A stretch of 63,318 bases of DNA from Lachnospiraceae bacterium (GTDB lineage: Bacteria; Bacillota; Clostridia; Lachnospirales; Lachnospiraceae): positions 1 through 63,318 of the forward strand of contig JALEWA010000024.1 of NCBI GenBank assembly GCA_022788085.1, written 5' to 3'. A program made the position numbers and the translations under genes. The first letter of the stretch is position 1. Every line of letters starts with the position of its first letter. Below the pieces are notes generated by a model. The model saw only the letters and a program-made list of their open reading frames with translations. It was not told the DNA's origin and searched no databases. Below are positions 5,077 through 42,513 of the stretch, one piece after another.

Positions 5077-5091
5077 GGCAATGGTGAGTAT

Positions 5092-5180
5092 TTAATTAGG
5101 GGCAAAACCGAGAGAAATCCGGTGACGCAAAGCTATAGGGTCTTACTATCTTTATAGGATGACAGCCAGTTGCGCATAGA
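5092..5180 (+). promoter_or_regulatory. Cyclic-di-GMP-I (GEMM) riboswitch aptamer
   Basis: The core matches the class I cyclic-di-GMP aptamer: GGGGCAAAACCG, a hairpin with a GAAA-type loop closed by ACCG/CGGT, the hallmark GACGCAAAGC (5124-5133), a second arm with GGGTCTT and TATAGGATG, and the closing GACAGCCAGTTGC (5161-5173). The order and spacing are those of GEMM-I. A strong promoter lies upstream and an intrinsic terminator starts 4 bases after the aptamer, so it probably acts at transcription termination. The first gene downstream is on the opposite strand, so the regulated target is not obvious. Confidence 0.93.
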
Positions 5181-37461: not shown

Positions 37462-38574
37462 ATGACTAAGATAGATATTTTTTCCGGCTTTTTAGGAGCT
37501 GGTAAGACAACCTTGATCAAGAAACTGTTAAAGGAAGCAATGGATGCATCTAAGGTTGTATTGATTGAGAATGAATTTGGTGAAATTGGTATTGATGGAG
37601 GATTCTTAAAGGAAGCAGGTGTTGAAATCAAGGAAATGAACCAGGGCTGCATCTGCTGTTCTTTAGTAGGTGACTTTGGCGCTTCTCTCGCAGAGGTGCT
37701 TGAAAAGTATCATCCTGAGAGAATCTTAATTGAGCCATCCGGAGTAGGAAAGCTTTCTGATGTTATGAAGGCTGTGCAGGATGTAGATTCCGATGTGGAA
37801 GTAACATTAAATAGTGCAGTTGTTGTTGTTGATGCAAATAAATGCAAAATGTATGCAAAGAACTTTGGTGAGTTCTTCTTAAATCAGATTGAACATGCCG
37901 GAACGATTATCTTAAGCAGAACGGCAGGAATTAGCGAGAGCAGGCTTCAGGCAGCGATGGAAATCATTCGTGAGCATAATGATAAAGCAACTGTAATCAC
38001 AACACCATGGGATGAACTTGATGGTAAGCAGATTTTGGAAACAATCGAAAATGCGAAGGATTTAGAAGCAGAATTGATGGAAGAGGTCGCAAAGCAGCAT
38101 GAGCATCATCATGACCACGATGAGAATTGCACCTGCGGCTGCCATGACCATGACCACCATCACGACCACGACGAGCATGACCATGAACATCATCACGACC
38201 ATGATGAGCATGACCACCACCATGACGACCATGAACATCATCATGACCATGAACATCATCATGATCACGATGAGCATGGACATCACCATCATCATGCAGA
38301 TGAGGTATTTACAAGCTGGGGAATGGAAACACCTACTACCTATACAGCAGTTGAGATTGAAGAAATTCTTAAGAAGCTTGATGAGGAAGAGACTTATGGT
38401 GTGATTCTTCGTGCAAAGGGTATGGTTCCTGCAGGAGATGGTACCTGGGTAAACTTTGATTATGTACCTGGTGAAAGCAATGTAAGAAAGGGTGCAGCAG
38501 AAGTAACAGGAAAGATTTGTGTCATTGGTTCTAAGCTTCAGGAAGAGAATCTTAAGAAATTGTTTGAAAAATAA
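37462..38574 (+). CDS. COG0523/CobW-family metal GTPase with histidine-rich insert
   Basis: A 370-residue G3E GTPase likely to bind zinc or another transition metal and deliver it to client proteins. Walker A GFLGAGKTT (about 9-17), Walker B-like region IENEFGEIGIDG, the metal motif GCICCS (CxCC, about 64-69), and EPSGVGK. A striking insert (about residues 213-280) is made almost wholly of His, Asp and Glu, and contains a NCTCGCHD cysteine cluster. The CobW C-terminal domain follows (YGVILRAKGMVPAGDGTWVN). The G4 motif is degenerate (LSRTAGIS). TAGGAGG precedes the ATG. It is followed after 14 bases by a second GTPase of the same class. Confidence 0.9.
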   Translation: MTKIDIFSGFLGAGKTTLIKKLLKEAMDASKVVLIENEFGEIGIDGGFLKEAGVEIKEMNQGCICCSLVGDFGASLAEVLEKYHPERILIEPSGVGKLSDVMKAVQDVDSDVEVTLNSAVVVVDANKCKMYAKNFGEFFLNQIEHAGTIILSRTAGISESRLQAAMEIIREHNDKATVITTPWDELDGKQILETIENAKDLEAELMEEVAKQHEHHHDHDENCTCGCHDHDHHHDHDEHDHEHHHDHDEHDHHHDDHEHHHDHEHHHDHDEHGHHHHHADEVFTSWGMETPTTYTAVEIEEILKKLDEEETYGVILRAKGMVPAGDGTWVNFDYVPGESNVRKGAAEVTGKICVIGSKLQEENLKKLFEK

Positions 38575-38588
38575 TTGGAGAAAAGTAT

Positions 38589-39521
38589 ATGAAGCCCGTT
38601 TATATTATTAATGGTTTTTTGGAAAGCGGTAAGACGGAATTTATTTCCTATACCATTTCCCAGCCTTACTTTCAGATACGCGGTAAGACTTTATTGATTG
38701 TATGTGAAGAAGGTGAAATAGAGTACGATACAAAGCTTCTTGCAAAGAGCAGAACAATTATGGAGGTCATCGACGAAGAGGAGGACTTCACACCGGAGAG
38801 ACTTTTGGAGCTTGAAAAGCAACATAAGCCGGAGCGAATTGTAATAGAATATAATGGTATGTGGAACTGTAAGGATATGAAGCTTCCATGGCATTGGACA
38901 GTAGAACAGCAGATTACTACAATTAATGGAGCAACCTTCCAGACTTACTATACCAATATGAAGTCTCTTGTCGCAGAACAGATTAGAAAGTCAGAACTGA
39001 TTATCTTTAATCGTTGCGATGGCTTGAATGAACAGCTTGCAAATTTCAAGAGAAATGTAAAGGCTGTAAATCCTCAGGCAGATATAGTATTTGAAGACAA
39101 GGATGGAGAAATCAATCAACTGTTGGAGGAGGATCTTCCATATGACTTGAACCAGCCTGTCATTGCTCTTGATAACATGGGATACGGAATCTGGTATCTG
39201 GATTCTATGGATAATCTTGGAAGATATCTGGGGAAAACCGTGAGATTTGTTGCGATGGTGTTGAAGCCAAAGGATTTTCCAAAGAATTATTTTGTCCCGG
39301 GAAGAATGGCAATGACCTGCTGTGCAGATGATATGGCATTCCTTGGATTTGCCTGCGAATATGATAAGGCAGCTGAGCTTACTGAGAAGTCCTGGGTGGA
39401 GGTTACTGCTGCTGTGGACAAGGAATATCGTGCAGAATACAAGGGCGAGGGTCCTGTACTTCGTGCAGTCAGTGTAACAGCTGCTAAGAAACCTAAAGAT
39501 GATATTATAAGCTTTGCTTAA
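38589..39521 (+). CDS. CobW-like GTPase fused to a YcgQ/TIGR03943-like domain
   Basis: A 310-residue protein. The N-terminal part is a P-loop GTPase like COG0523 (Walker A NGFLESGKTEF, residues 8-18; FNRCDG as G4) but lacks the CxCC metal motif. From about residue 205 the sequence changes to a domain resembling the C-terminal part of YcgQ/TIGR03943 proteins: VRFVAMVLKPKDF, then GRMAMTCCADDMAFLGFACE with a vicinal Cys244-Cys245, and WVEVTAAV. In Bacillus, YcgQ/YcgR are zinc-linked membrane proteins under Zur; here no membrane segment is present. TGGAGAAAAG precedes the ATG. Probable joint role with the preceding GTPase in metal homeostasis (inference). Confidence 0.75.
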   Translation: MKPVYIINGFLESGKTEFISYTISQPYFQIRGKTLLIVCEEGEIEYDTKLLAKSRTIMEVIDEEEDFTPERLLELEKQHKPERIVIEYNGMWNCKDMKLPWHWTVEQQITTINGATFQTYYTNMKSLVAEQIRKSELIIFNRCDGLNEQLANFKRNVKAVNPQADIVFEDKDGEINQLLEEDLPYDLNQPVIALDNMGYGIWYLDSMDNLGRYLGKTVRFVAMVLKPKDFPKNYFVPGRMAMTCCADDMAFLGFACEYDKAAELTEKSWVEVTAAVDKEYRAEYKGEGPVLRAVSVTAAKKPKDDIISFA

Positions 39522-40810: not shown

Positions 40811-40849
40811 AAAAGAGCATGTGAATTAAATGGTTCACATGCTCTTTTT
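40811..40849. terminator. Bidirectional terminator between the Sel1 gene and pyrI
   Basis: A perfect 15-bp stem AAAAGAGCATGTGAA/TTCACATGCTCTTTT with an 8-base loop, A-rich left and T-rich right, so it can end both converging transcripts. Confidence 0.9.
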
Positions 40850-40861
40850 CATAGTTTCTTA

Positions 40862-41296
40862 TTAAAATTCAGAACTGCTGTATTTCTCTTCGCAGTATTT
40901 GCAACGATAGATTTCCTTTTCCTCATCTGTCAATACAAAAATATGTGGTAATTCCTGCTCGATAGAGGTAATGCAGCGAGGATTTTTACATTTTAAAACA
41001 TTTTTGATTTCCTTTGGCAAGGTAAGAGGAAGCTTCTCTACAATTTCACAATTCTTGATAACATTTACTGTGATGTTATGGTCGATAAATCCAAGGATAT
41101 CAAGATTCAGAGTATTGATATCACATTCCACTTTAAGGATATCTTTTTTTCCCATTTTATCACTTCTTGCATTCTTAATGATTGCAACGGTGCAATCAAG
41201 CTTGTCCAGGCCAAGATGCTTATAGATACTGAGACTTTTGCCGGCCTTAATATGGTCTAATACGAAGCCTTCTTCGATTTTTCCTACATTTAACAT
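40862..41296 (-). CDS. pyrI: Aspartate carbamoyltransferase regulatory chain
   Basis: Allosteric nucleotide-binding chain of the pyrBI-type ATCase. 144 residues: N-terminal nucleotide domain (VGKIEEGFVLDHIKAGKSLS) and a C-terminal zinc domain with CKNPRC and CKYC supplying four cysteines. AGGAGGTTTCAT precedes the ATG on this strand. It follows pyrB by 30 bases, giving a two-gene operon on the minus strand. Presence of PyrI means the enzyme is likely feedback-controlled by CTP/UTP, unlike the PyrB-only enzyme of Bacillus. Confidence 0.96.
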   Translation of the reverse strand: MLNVGKIEEGFVLDHIKAGKSLSIYKHLGLDKLDCTVAIIKNARSDKMGKKDILKVECDINTLNLDILGFIDHNITVNVIKNCEIVEKLPLTLPKEIKNVLKCKNPRCITSIEQELPHIFVLTDEEKEIYRCKYCEEKYSSSEF

Positions 41297-41326: not shown

Positions 41327-42244
41327 CTATTCAACTTTGATTTCCAACAAGGTGAGAAGTAAAGCCATTCTGACATAGACTCCGTACTGAACCTGACGGA
41401 AGTATACAGCTCTTGGATCGTCATCAACTTCAACAGAAATCTCGTTAACTCGAGGAAGCGGATGGAGGACAATCATATCATCCTTTGCCAGTTCCATCTT
41501 TTCCTTATTCAGAATATAGAAGTCCTTCAAACGTACATAGTCCTCTTCGTTGAAGAAACGTTCCTTCTGCACACGTGTCATGTAAAGGATATCCAGTTCA
41601 GGCATGACATCCTCAAGCCGTGTAACCTCCTGGAAGGAAATGTTCTTTTCACGGAGCATTTCAGTGATATATTCAGGAACTCTTAGTTCATCTGGTGAGA
41701 TGAAGATAAAGTTGATATTGGAATAGCGTACCAGCGCATTGATCAGAGAATGCACTGTTCTGCCAAACTTTAGGTCACCACATAGACCAATGGTAAAGTT
41801 ATTCAGACGTCCCTTGATAGCACGGATGGTAAGAAGGTCGGTCAATGTCTGGGTTGGATGCTGATGTCCACCGTCGCCGGCATTGATGACGGGAATTGTA
41901 GAGCGGGAGGCAGCAACCATGGGAGCGCCCTCCTTTGGATGTCTCATGGCACAGATATCAGCATAACAGGAAATGATGCGAATGGTATCTGATACACTTT
42001 CCCCCTTTGCGGCAGAAGAAGAATTAGCATCAGAAAAACCAAAGATACTTCCACCAAGATTAAGCATGGCAGCTTCAAAGCTTAAGCGTGTTCTTGTACT
42101 AGGTTCATAGAAGCAGGTCGCAAGCTTTTTACCGGCACAGGCATGTGCATATTTTGCAGGATTTTTTTCAATGTCATCGGCAAGCTGGAACAGCTCCTCA
42201 AGTTCTTCCACGGAAAAATCCAGTGGACTCATTAAGTGTCTCAT
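41327..42244 (-). CDS. pyrB: Aspartate carbamoyltransferase catalytic chain
   Basis: Condenses carbamoyl phosphate and aspartate in pyrimidine synthesis. 305 residues; carbamoyl-phosphate motif [10 protein letters not shown] (about 48-57), the loop SSAAKGES (74-81 region), [13 protein letters not shown] (about 127-139), and MTRVQKERF with [10 protein letters not shown] at the C-terminus. AAGGAGGATTCTT precedes the ATG. Transcription starts at about 42478 on the minus strand, leaving a 234-nt leader that contains a leader ORF and an intrinsic terminator (42278-42306), strong signs of attenuation. Confidence 0.97.
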
Positions 42245-42277
42245 AAGAATCCTCCTTAAAAAATGTTCGAATGAGTG

Positions 42278-42306
42278 AAAAAAAGAAGAGAAAAAATCTC
42301 TTCTTT
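42278..42306 (-). terminator. Leader attenuator of pyrBI
   Basis: On the minus strand a 10-bp stem AAAGAAGAGA/TCTCTTCTTT closes a T5 loop and is followed by TTTT, 34 bases before the pyrB start. Two bases of the leader-peptide stop codon are in its 5' arm. A terminator placed inside an operon leader is the mark of attenuation. Confidence 0.85.
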
Positions 42307-42421
42307 AAAAACTAACAATATAAAAATTGAAATGTCTGAAAATGGAAAAAGAAATAGAAATATCATGCTGTTTGGAGTTGTTGTTATGCAATTTGTTCAT
42401 ATTACCAAAAGATGCAGCCAT
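42305..42421 (-). CDS. Putative pyrBI leader peptide
   Basis: A 38-codon frame (MAASFGNMNKLH at the start, NFYIVSF at the end) begins about 57 bases after the predicted transcript start, with AGAGAG 9-10 bases before the ATG. It ends with TAA at the base of the attenuator stem. Its second half is extremely U-rich in the RNA (Phe/Ile/Ser codons). In Escherichia coli, the pyrBI leader peptide is translated so that a ribosome trailing a UTP-starved polymerase blocks the terminator; this leader has the same parts. No sequence similarity to the E. coli peptide is seen or needed. Confidence 0.65.
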   Translation of the reverse strand: MAASFGNMNKLHNNNSKQHDISISFSIFRHFNFYIVSF

Positions 42422-42484
42422 TATTTCAATCTCTCTTTCTTAATAGTAATTTAAGATAATAAGTTTATTCAATATACTTTTGTT

Positions 42485-42513
42485 ATCATAGCATATAGAT
42501 GGATTCGTTTCAA
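42485..42513 (-). promoter_or_regulatory. Promoter of the pyrBI operon
   Basis: On the minus strand TTGAAA (42508-42513), a 17-base spacer and TATGAT (42485-42490) place the start near 42478. Confidence 0.75.

Follow-up and report, generated by a model that had tools for sequence, protein, structure and literature searches.

The window analyzed here is the whole 63,318-nucleotide stretch of Lachnospiraceae DNA. On its minus strand a promoter is followed, in order, by a U-rich leader open reading frame (ORF) of 38 codons, a hairpin terminator, pyrB, and pyrI. The original prediction had described this series, including the U-rich later part of the ORF and the overlap between its stop codon and the terminator, and all of these elements were read directly in the DNA. 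The features, in window coordinates, are as follows.

42485..42513, minus strand: promoter, TTGAAA-17-TATGAT with a TG before the -10 element (sequence reading and promoter scan).
42305..42421, minus strand: leader ORF, 38 codons plus stop, MAASFGNMNKLHNNNSKQHDISISFSIFRHFNFYIVSF (ORF reading and relatives).
42282..42306, minus strand: putative attenuator, an intrinsic terminator hairpin of 10 bp with a 5-nt loop and a T tail to 42278 (scan and relatives).
41327..42244, minus strand: pyrB, aspartate carbamoyltransferase catalytic chain, with a Shine-Dalgarno (SD) sequence at 42257-42251 (ORF and Pfam PyrB).
40862..41296, minus strand: pyrI, aspartate carbamoyltransferase regulatory chain (ORF and Pfam PyrI).
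40811..40848, minus strand: terminator-like hairpin closing the pyrBI operon (terminator scan).

Transcription is predicted from the promoter to start at about 42478, which would put the leader ATG (42421) at about +58. The SD sequence of the leader ORF is weak (AAAGAGAG). The leader stop codon, TAA at 42307-42305, shares its last bases with the 5' foot of the hairpin, and the pyrB ATG at 42244 lies 37 nt downstream of the hairpin stem. The T content of the window leader by thirds was 0.33, 0.38, and 0.56, and its last 60 nt contained 0.58 T; a value of 0.55 was reached in only 5 of the 2,567 overlapping 60-nt segments of the nine coding sequences around the operon. The terminator scan of the region was weak by itself (6 found versus 3.7 +/- 2.1 in shuffled sequences), and the promoter scan returned 13 sites, fewer than in shuffles (17.3). 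Because these regional scans were unremarkable, significance was taken from conservation among relatives.

Elsewhere in the window, two adjoining genes for CobW-type GTPases (37462-38574 and 38589-39521, both plus strand) are convergent to pyrBI. The second matches CobW and DUF1980_C in Pfam; the first, named from sequence alone, contains a long His-rich tract. A c-di-GMP-I riboswitch (58.3 bits) lies at 5091-5177 on the plus strand.

Relatives were gathered by searching with the PyrB sequence of the window. A match was obtained in 146 of 150 genomes of the family (at least four of them matching only weakly) and in all 38 genomes of the same genus, that of the window included, 32 of which had a full-length close pyrB. 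A search of named contigs confirmed 581 loci, of which the best 80 were used. One hundred further upstream regions were added; nine of these were without a usable pyrB start, and in distant loci some assigned starts were visibly wrong. Collapsing loci with identical last 150 nt before pyrB left 220 loci, with 31 same-genus rows including the window. By a fixed rule, a pyrB-proximal hairpin was present in 21 of the 31; one row with only 73 nt of upstream sequence (L072) was dropped, leaving 20. We defined a leader ORF as an SD sequence and ATG opening at least 20 codons, with a stop at most 16 nt short of the hairpin, inside it, or beyond it. The patterns for SD sequences, promoters, and nitroreductase tails were devised by us for this analysis, and kinship among the sequences inflates all counts given here.

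A leader ORF reached or crossed the hairpin in 19 of the 20 same-genus hairpin leaders, including the window, where shuffled sequences predict 0.38; as the rows are related, a nominal P value for this comparison would be unfair. Thirteen of the ORFs stop at or within the hairpin, and six (L043, L045, L048, L050, L057, and L247) run through it. This agrees with the expectation that a leader ORF ending at the terminator would be conserved in position. Loss of the ORF with retention of the hairpin had been named as evidence to the contrary; within the genus this was found only in L046, one row of 20, and outside the genus it was found in L139 and L146. L046 has a hairpin directly preceded by GGAGG and no SD/ATG ORF. 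At this locus, 61-79 nt upstream of pyrB, the leader ORF appears to have been deleted between the SD sequence and the retained hairpin; by eye, a frame starting from an ATG very near the predicted transcript start runs through the hairpin.

Ten same-genus rows had no rule-defined hairpin, and in nine of these the 200 nt next to pyrB likewise contained no ORF of this kind. In four of the hairpin-less rows (L052, L069, L070, and L073) a -10 box ends 42-53 nt before pyrB. L065, hairpin-less by the rule, has an ORF and a hairpin of -13.0 kcal/mol whose loop is longer than the rule allows. In this variant, found roughly 93-127 nt ahead of where pyrB is assigned to start, the SD sequence of the leader ORF sits inside the terminator stem, an arrangement in which ribosome binding and termination would be directly mutually exclusive. 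Many same-genus hairpins are weak (-5.8 kcal/mol). Outside the genus, L029 and L091 carry U-rich ORFs of their own at the hairpin, and L136 carries a less U-rich one.

A promoter-like site was present upstream of the leader ATG in 17 of the 19 leaders, 16 of them with TTGAAA or TTGCAA at 17-nt spacing. None was found between the hairpin and pyrB in any of the 19 (the window and 18 relatives), and the leader appears to lie upstream of pyrBI in one transcription unit. L051 has no recognizable promoter; perhaps it is misassembled. The leader-hairpin-pyrBI arrangement is confirmed as real and conserved.

The original prediction further expected the leader ORF to drift synonymously, and in this it failed. 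Substitutions at codon positions 1/2/3 numbered 18/26/20, 30/38/34, and 9/10/8 in three leader groups, comprising 8 of the 19 leaders, with the second group (L043/L045/L048) counted past the hairpin. A conserved leader peptide was ruled out by this even distribution. On this comparison, what is conserved is an open, U-rich frame and not a peptide. The two other frames of the 19 leaders contained 20 and 57 stops, and the ORF frame, by definition, none. Mean T content by thirds was 0.38, 0.50, and 0.54, against 0.29 in pyrB of the window, so that the U-rich stretch predicted before the terminator recurs in the middle and last thirds across the genus; in 6 of the 19 leaders T content drops from the middle to the last third. 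NusG-type TTNTTT motifs were not enriched in the leaders.

A leader of this anatomy might control transcription through translation while answering to another signal, as classical leader-peptide operons do: the overall capacity for translation, or an amino acid, for which Phe, His, Tyr, Ile, or Asn codons would be the sensing ones. By eye, Phe, Tyr, Ile, His, and Cys codons abound in the leaders, and that of the window has three consecutive Asn codons. However, the Asn run is missing from the close relatives L040 and L042, no codon run common to the leaders was seen by eye, and the codon positions change evenly. We also compared pairing between the 5' arm of the terminator and the ORF in 12 hand-picked representative leaders. 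The observed value was -64.3 and the mean of permuted combinations was -67.1, with 0.76 of permutations doing as well as the observed combination; as this pairing has not co-evolved, a trp-like antiterminator is unsupported. An amino acid signal would, moreover, make little sense for pyrBI, and we regard this explanation as unlikely.

PyrR control was rejected, neither a PyrR protein nor a PyrR-binding RNA having been found above cutoff. With a single protein model (NF003549), none of 36 same-genus genomes scored above the cutoff (best score, 38.8 bits versus a cutoff of 138). Scores above it were obtained in 6 of the 60 genomes covered by that same search, all 6 from other families of the order, and in 4 of 150 family genomes. 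Among control genomes, 6 of 14 scored above the cutoff, Bacillus subtilis included. Many of the assemblies are incomplete, so PyrR could go undetected in single genomes. No PyrR-binding RNA scored above cutoff in the window leader, the window, or the genome from which it comes, in keeping with the original prediction, which had recognized no PyrR structure here and had proposed the search for pyrR. In the same genome, no similar leaders were seen by eye upstream of carA, pyrC, or pyrF, and an NCS2 uracil permease was not found.

Folding of the window leader revealed a point absent from the original prediction, in that the SD region was paired with a pyrimidine-rich part of the leader's own ORF. 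The two arms of this SD-closing pairing, identified by folding and co-evolution, are as follows.

42421..42440, minus strand: predicted 5' arm, containing the SD sequence (AAAGAGAG) and extending to the A of the ATG.
42344..42363, minus strand: predicted 3' arm, pyrimidine rich, within the leader ORF.

The whole window leader including the terminator was more stable than shuffled sequences (z = -2.67), whereas without the 3' arm of the terminator it was not (z = -0.42). Pairing was then assessed in 22 leaders, namely, the 19 same-genus leaders plus L029, L091, and L136. The mean ensemble pairing probability of the SD region was 0.44-0.98 per leader. Compared with shuffled ORFs, the mean z score was -1.65 and was negative in 21 of the 22 leaders, 8 of which passed a P of 0.05 singly. 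By lineage, 11 of 11 means were negative (mean, -1.73; Wilcoxon P = 0.0005). When ORFs were swapped between lineages, using random representatives, they paired as well as the native ORFs in 13 of 20,000 draws. Control values were +0.42 for pyrB ribosome sites (n = 21) and -0.29 for 29 long SD-bearing ORFs on both strands of the window. Not every lineage showed a strong pairing (mean z of -0.66 in group D, and +0.8 for L047). RNAalifold, applied to an alignment of 10 of the 19 same-genus leaders, recovered both the SD stem and the terminator but showed no base pair with both partners changed; the case for the SD stem therefore comes from the shuffle and swap tests and not from classical covariation. 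By these tests, the two arms of the predicted pairing are co-evolved.

Bacillota are classed as having runaway transcription in the accessible part of PMC13323073, and a short stop-to-terminator distance is used as a sign of it in that of PMC7858274. This distance alone therefore proves little, above all at the loci, described below, where a nitroreductase gene precedes pyrB. The same association favors an account in which an ordinary terminator lies behind a leader ORF of no consequence and partial read-through sets the level of pyrBI; the ten same-genus rows that manage without a rule-defined hairpin also fit it. We consider this account distinctly improbable: an incidental ORF would not be expected to reach the hairpin in 19 of 20 leaders (0.38 expected), nor to be retained or lost jointly with it, as is the case in the same-genus rows except L046; in addition, past the hairpin the 19 leaders are all devoid of promoter-like sites, and the SD-closing pairing has co-evolved. 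That the long-range hairpin holding the leader ribosome site is itself a sensor that binds a ligand or protein, with the ORF merely relaying its state, would accord with the co-evolved pairing and is very unlikely, given that no Rfam family exceeded the gathering score at the window leader or six relative loci, that there is no PyrR, that the ORF region taken by itself is less strongly folded than its shuffled versions (mean z, +0.74), and that the pairing persists while the sequence changes, with few alignment columns invariant (9 of 196).

We consider it likely that the leader is a translation-controlled transcription attenuator, one in which RNA polymerase speed most probably serves to sense UTP. 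Comparison among relatives shows the association of ORF and hairpin, the U richness, the pairing over the SD sequence, the lack of PyrR, and the lack of a promoter-like site past the hairpin; we infer leader translation, polymerase pausing, and UTP as the signal. When UTP is plentiful, the polymerase would run ahead, and the pyrimidine-rich part of the leader would emerge early and fold onto the leader ribosome-binding site. With this site closed, no ribosome would follow, and the terminator would end the transcript ahead of pyrB. Under UTP limitation, the polymerase would slow in the U-rich leader and a ribosome would load before the site closes. The loaded ribosome would then translate as far as the stop codon, at the foot of the hairpin, and cover the 5' arm of the terminator, so that pyrBI would be transcribed. 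The SD pairing would in this way act as a gate on loading, as a fast polymerase would deliver the closing arm before the ribosome binds and a slow one would not. The original prediction had assigned the locus to the enterobacterial pyrBI attenuation design. The anatomy of a translation-controlled attenuator, the U-rich leader, and the lack of PyrR are supported; transfer from enterobacteria is not.

Outside the genus, 70 loci have a nitroreductase gene before pyrB, 59 with a hairpin and 11 without one by the rule; one nitroreductase tail was verified by Pfam (PF00881). In the 59 loci, -2 to 16 nt (median, 6 nt) separate the nitroreductase stop from the hairpin. Of the 11 rule-negative loci, L083 and L090 do have one, placed farther along, and L015 and L021 show, by eye, apparent imperfect or long-loop hairpins. 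The distance from hairpin to pyrB is at most 50 nt in 38 of the 59, and none of these 38 has a promoter-like site in between, so that pyrB is probably reached via read-through. The 36 nt that precede the hairpin had a T content of 0.36, versus 0.27 in the gene body, and exceeded the latter in 56 of the 59 loci. Hairpins similar to those in the genus of the window (GAAGAGA...TCTCTTC) occur at many of these loci. A nitroreductase-family gene is apparently within the pyrB transcription unit in the 59 loci. Neither a hairpin nor a nitroreductase gene was present in 37 of 130 classified loci, some of them from the same genus.

In a PyrB tree of 130 rows, the same-genus rows fall among hairpin-bearing lineages; the tree was built by a quick method that left 63 of its 126 inner branches open, and it does not settle in which order the gains occurred. 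The placement of L029, on a long branch, is unsure, and the automatic labels misplace L066 and assign leader ORFs to L018 and L085 that inspection did not bear out. The original prediction had allowed for convergence or transfer. Transfer is not supported: pyrL and the window leader peptide gave no local alignment at E <= 100, a weak test at 44 and 38 residues. A local, convergent origin is likelier, since the hairpin resembles those following nitroreductase genes in other Lachnospiraceae. A possible history, which we stop short of calling probable, is that a UTP-sensing attenuation of pyrBI coupled to translation evolved independently in the Lachnospiraceae, a family in which PyrR is mostly absent. 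The hairpin would have arisen first behind a nitroreductase gene, which was later replaced by short U-rich ORFs in several lineages; a kinetic gate that closes the ribosome site of the ORF would have been added, so that a polymerase that normally outruns the ribosome is followed only when UTP is short. Such a gate may exist in Escherichia coli pyrL.

If this is true, a family mostly without PyrR would have a pyrimidine sensor, and the E. coli pyrBI solution would have arisen a second time, in Bacillota, which are thought to regulate these genes differently. In a phylum grouped with the uncoupled ones, the leader would also be a natural reporter of whether a ribosome can reach the polymerase. 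The SD-closing pairing suggests a route by which a runaway polymerase could be made answerable to translation, and it yields a testable prediction for E. coli pyrL. We found no published account of such a leader in the literature searched, beyond the reach of which most subscription papers lay.

Several known systems resemble parts of this arrangement. The attenuator of E. coli rph-pyrE (L263) is paralleled by the 59 other Lachnospiraceae loci in which a protein gene ends just before a hairpin that is followed by pyrB. The upstream gene and the pyr gene are different in the Lachnospiraceae, and the rph annotated in E. coli K-12 is a truncated version whose stop is further from the hairpin. The window differs from this type in having a short leader ORF and no upstream protein gene ending at the hairpin. 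In PyrR-controlled pyr leaders (RF00515), pyr genes are attenuated by an intrinsic terminator, as is proposed here; unlike in those Bacillota leaders, neither PyrR nor its RNA was found above cutoff here. The accessible text of PMC6851288 and PMC9226507 describes the B. subtilis tlrB (yxjB) and vmlR leaders, where a ribosome on a short ORF decides the fate of a terminator and pausing sets the timing. These share with the present leader the phylum and, in the reading proposed here, a ribosome on a short ORF that governs a terminator; they differ in responding to ribosome-stalling antibiotics, whereas here there is no conserved peptide motif and the target is pyrBI.

A close counterpart is pyrL of the E. 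coli pyrBI operon (K-12, NC_000913.3; L262). Its SD sequence, GGGAGGA, is predicted to pair with UCUUCCC 17-23 nt before the attenuator with a probability near 1, although the duplex test for K-12 pyrL was no better than shuffles (z = +0.6). No mention of this SD closure was found in the accessible portions of the pyrL literature examined. The pyrL pause that has been studied is unlikely to depend on RNA structure, according to the part of PMC9291695 available, a result that does not test a closing role of the SD pairing and fits one better described as closing than as pausing. No U run was seen by eye at the predicted transcript start of the window, so that reiterative transcription of the E. 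coli type is not expected. In the accessible part of PMC10135430, pyrL is described as 49% U requiring; a fast polymerase terminates within it, and low UTP leads to pausing, whereupon a coupled ribosome prevents the hairpin from forming. The window phylum, Bacillota, and the reach of pyrL, whose 44 codons run through the hairpin as only 6 of the 19 leaders do here, set the two apart; they have in common the order of promoter, leader ORF, U-rich stretch, terminator, and pyrBI.
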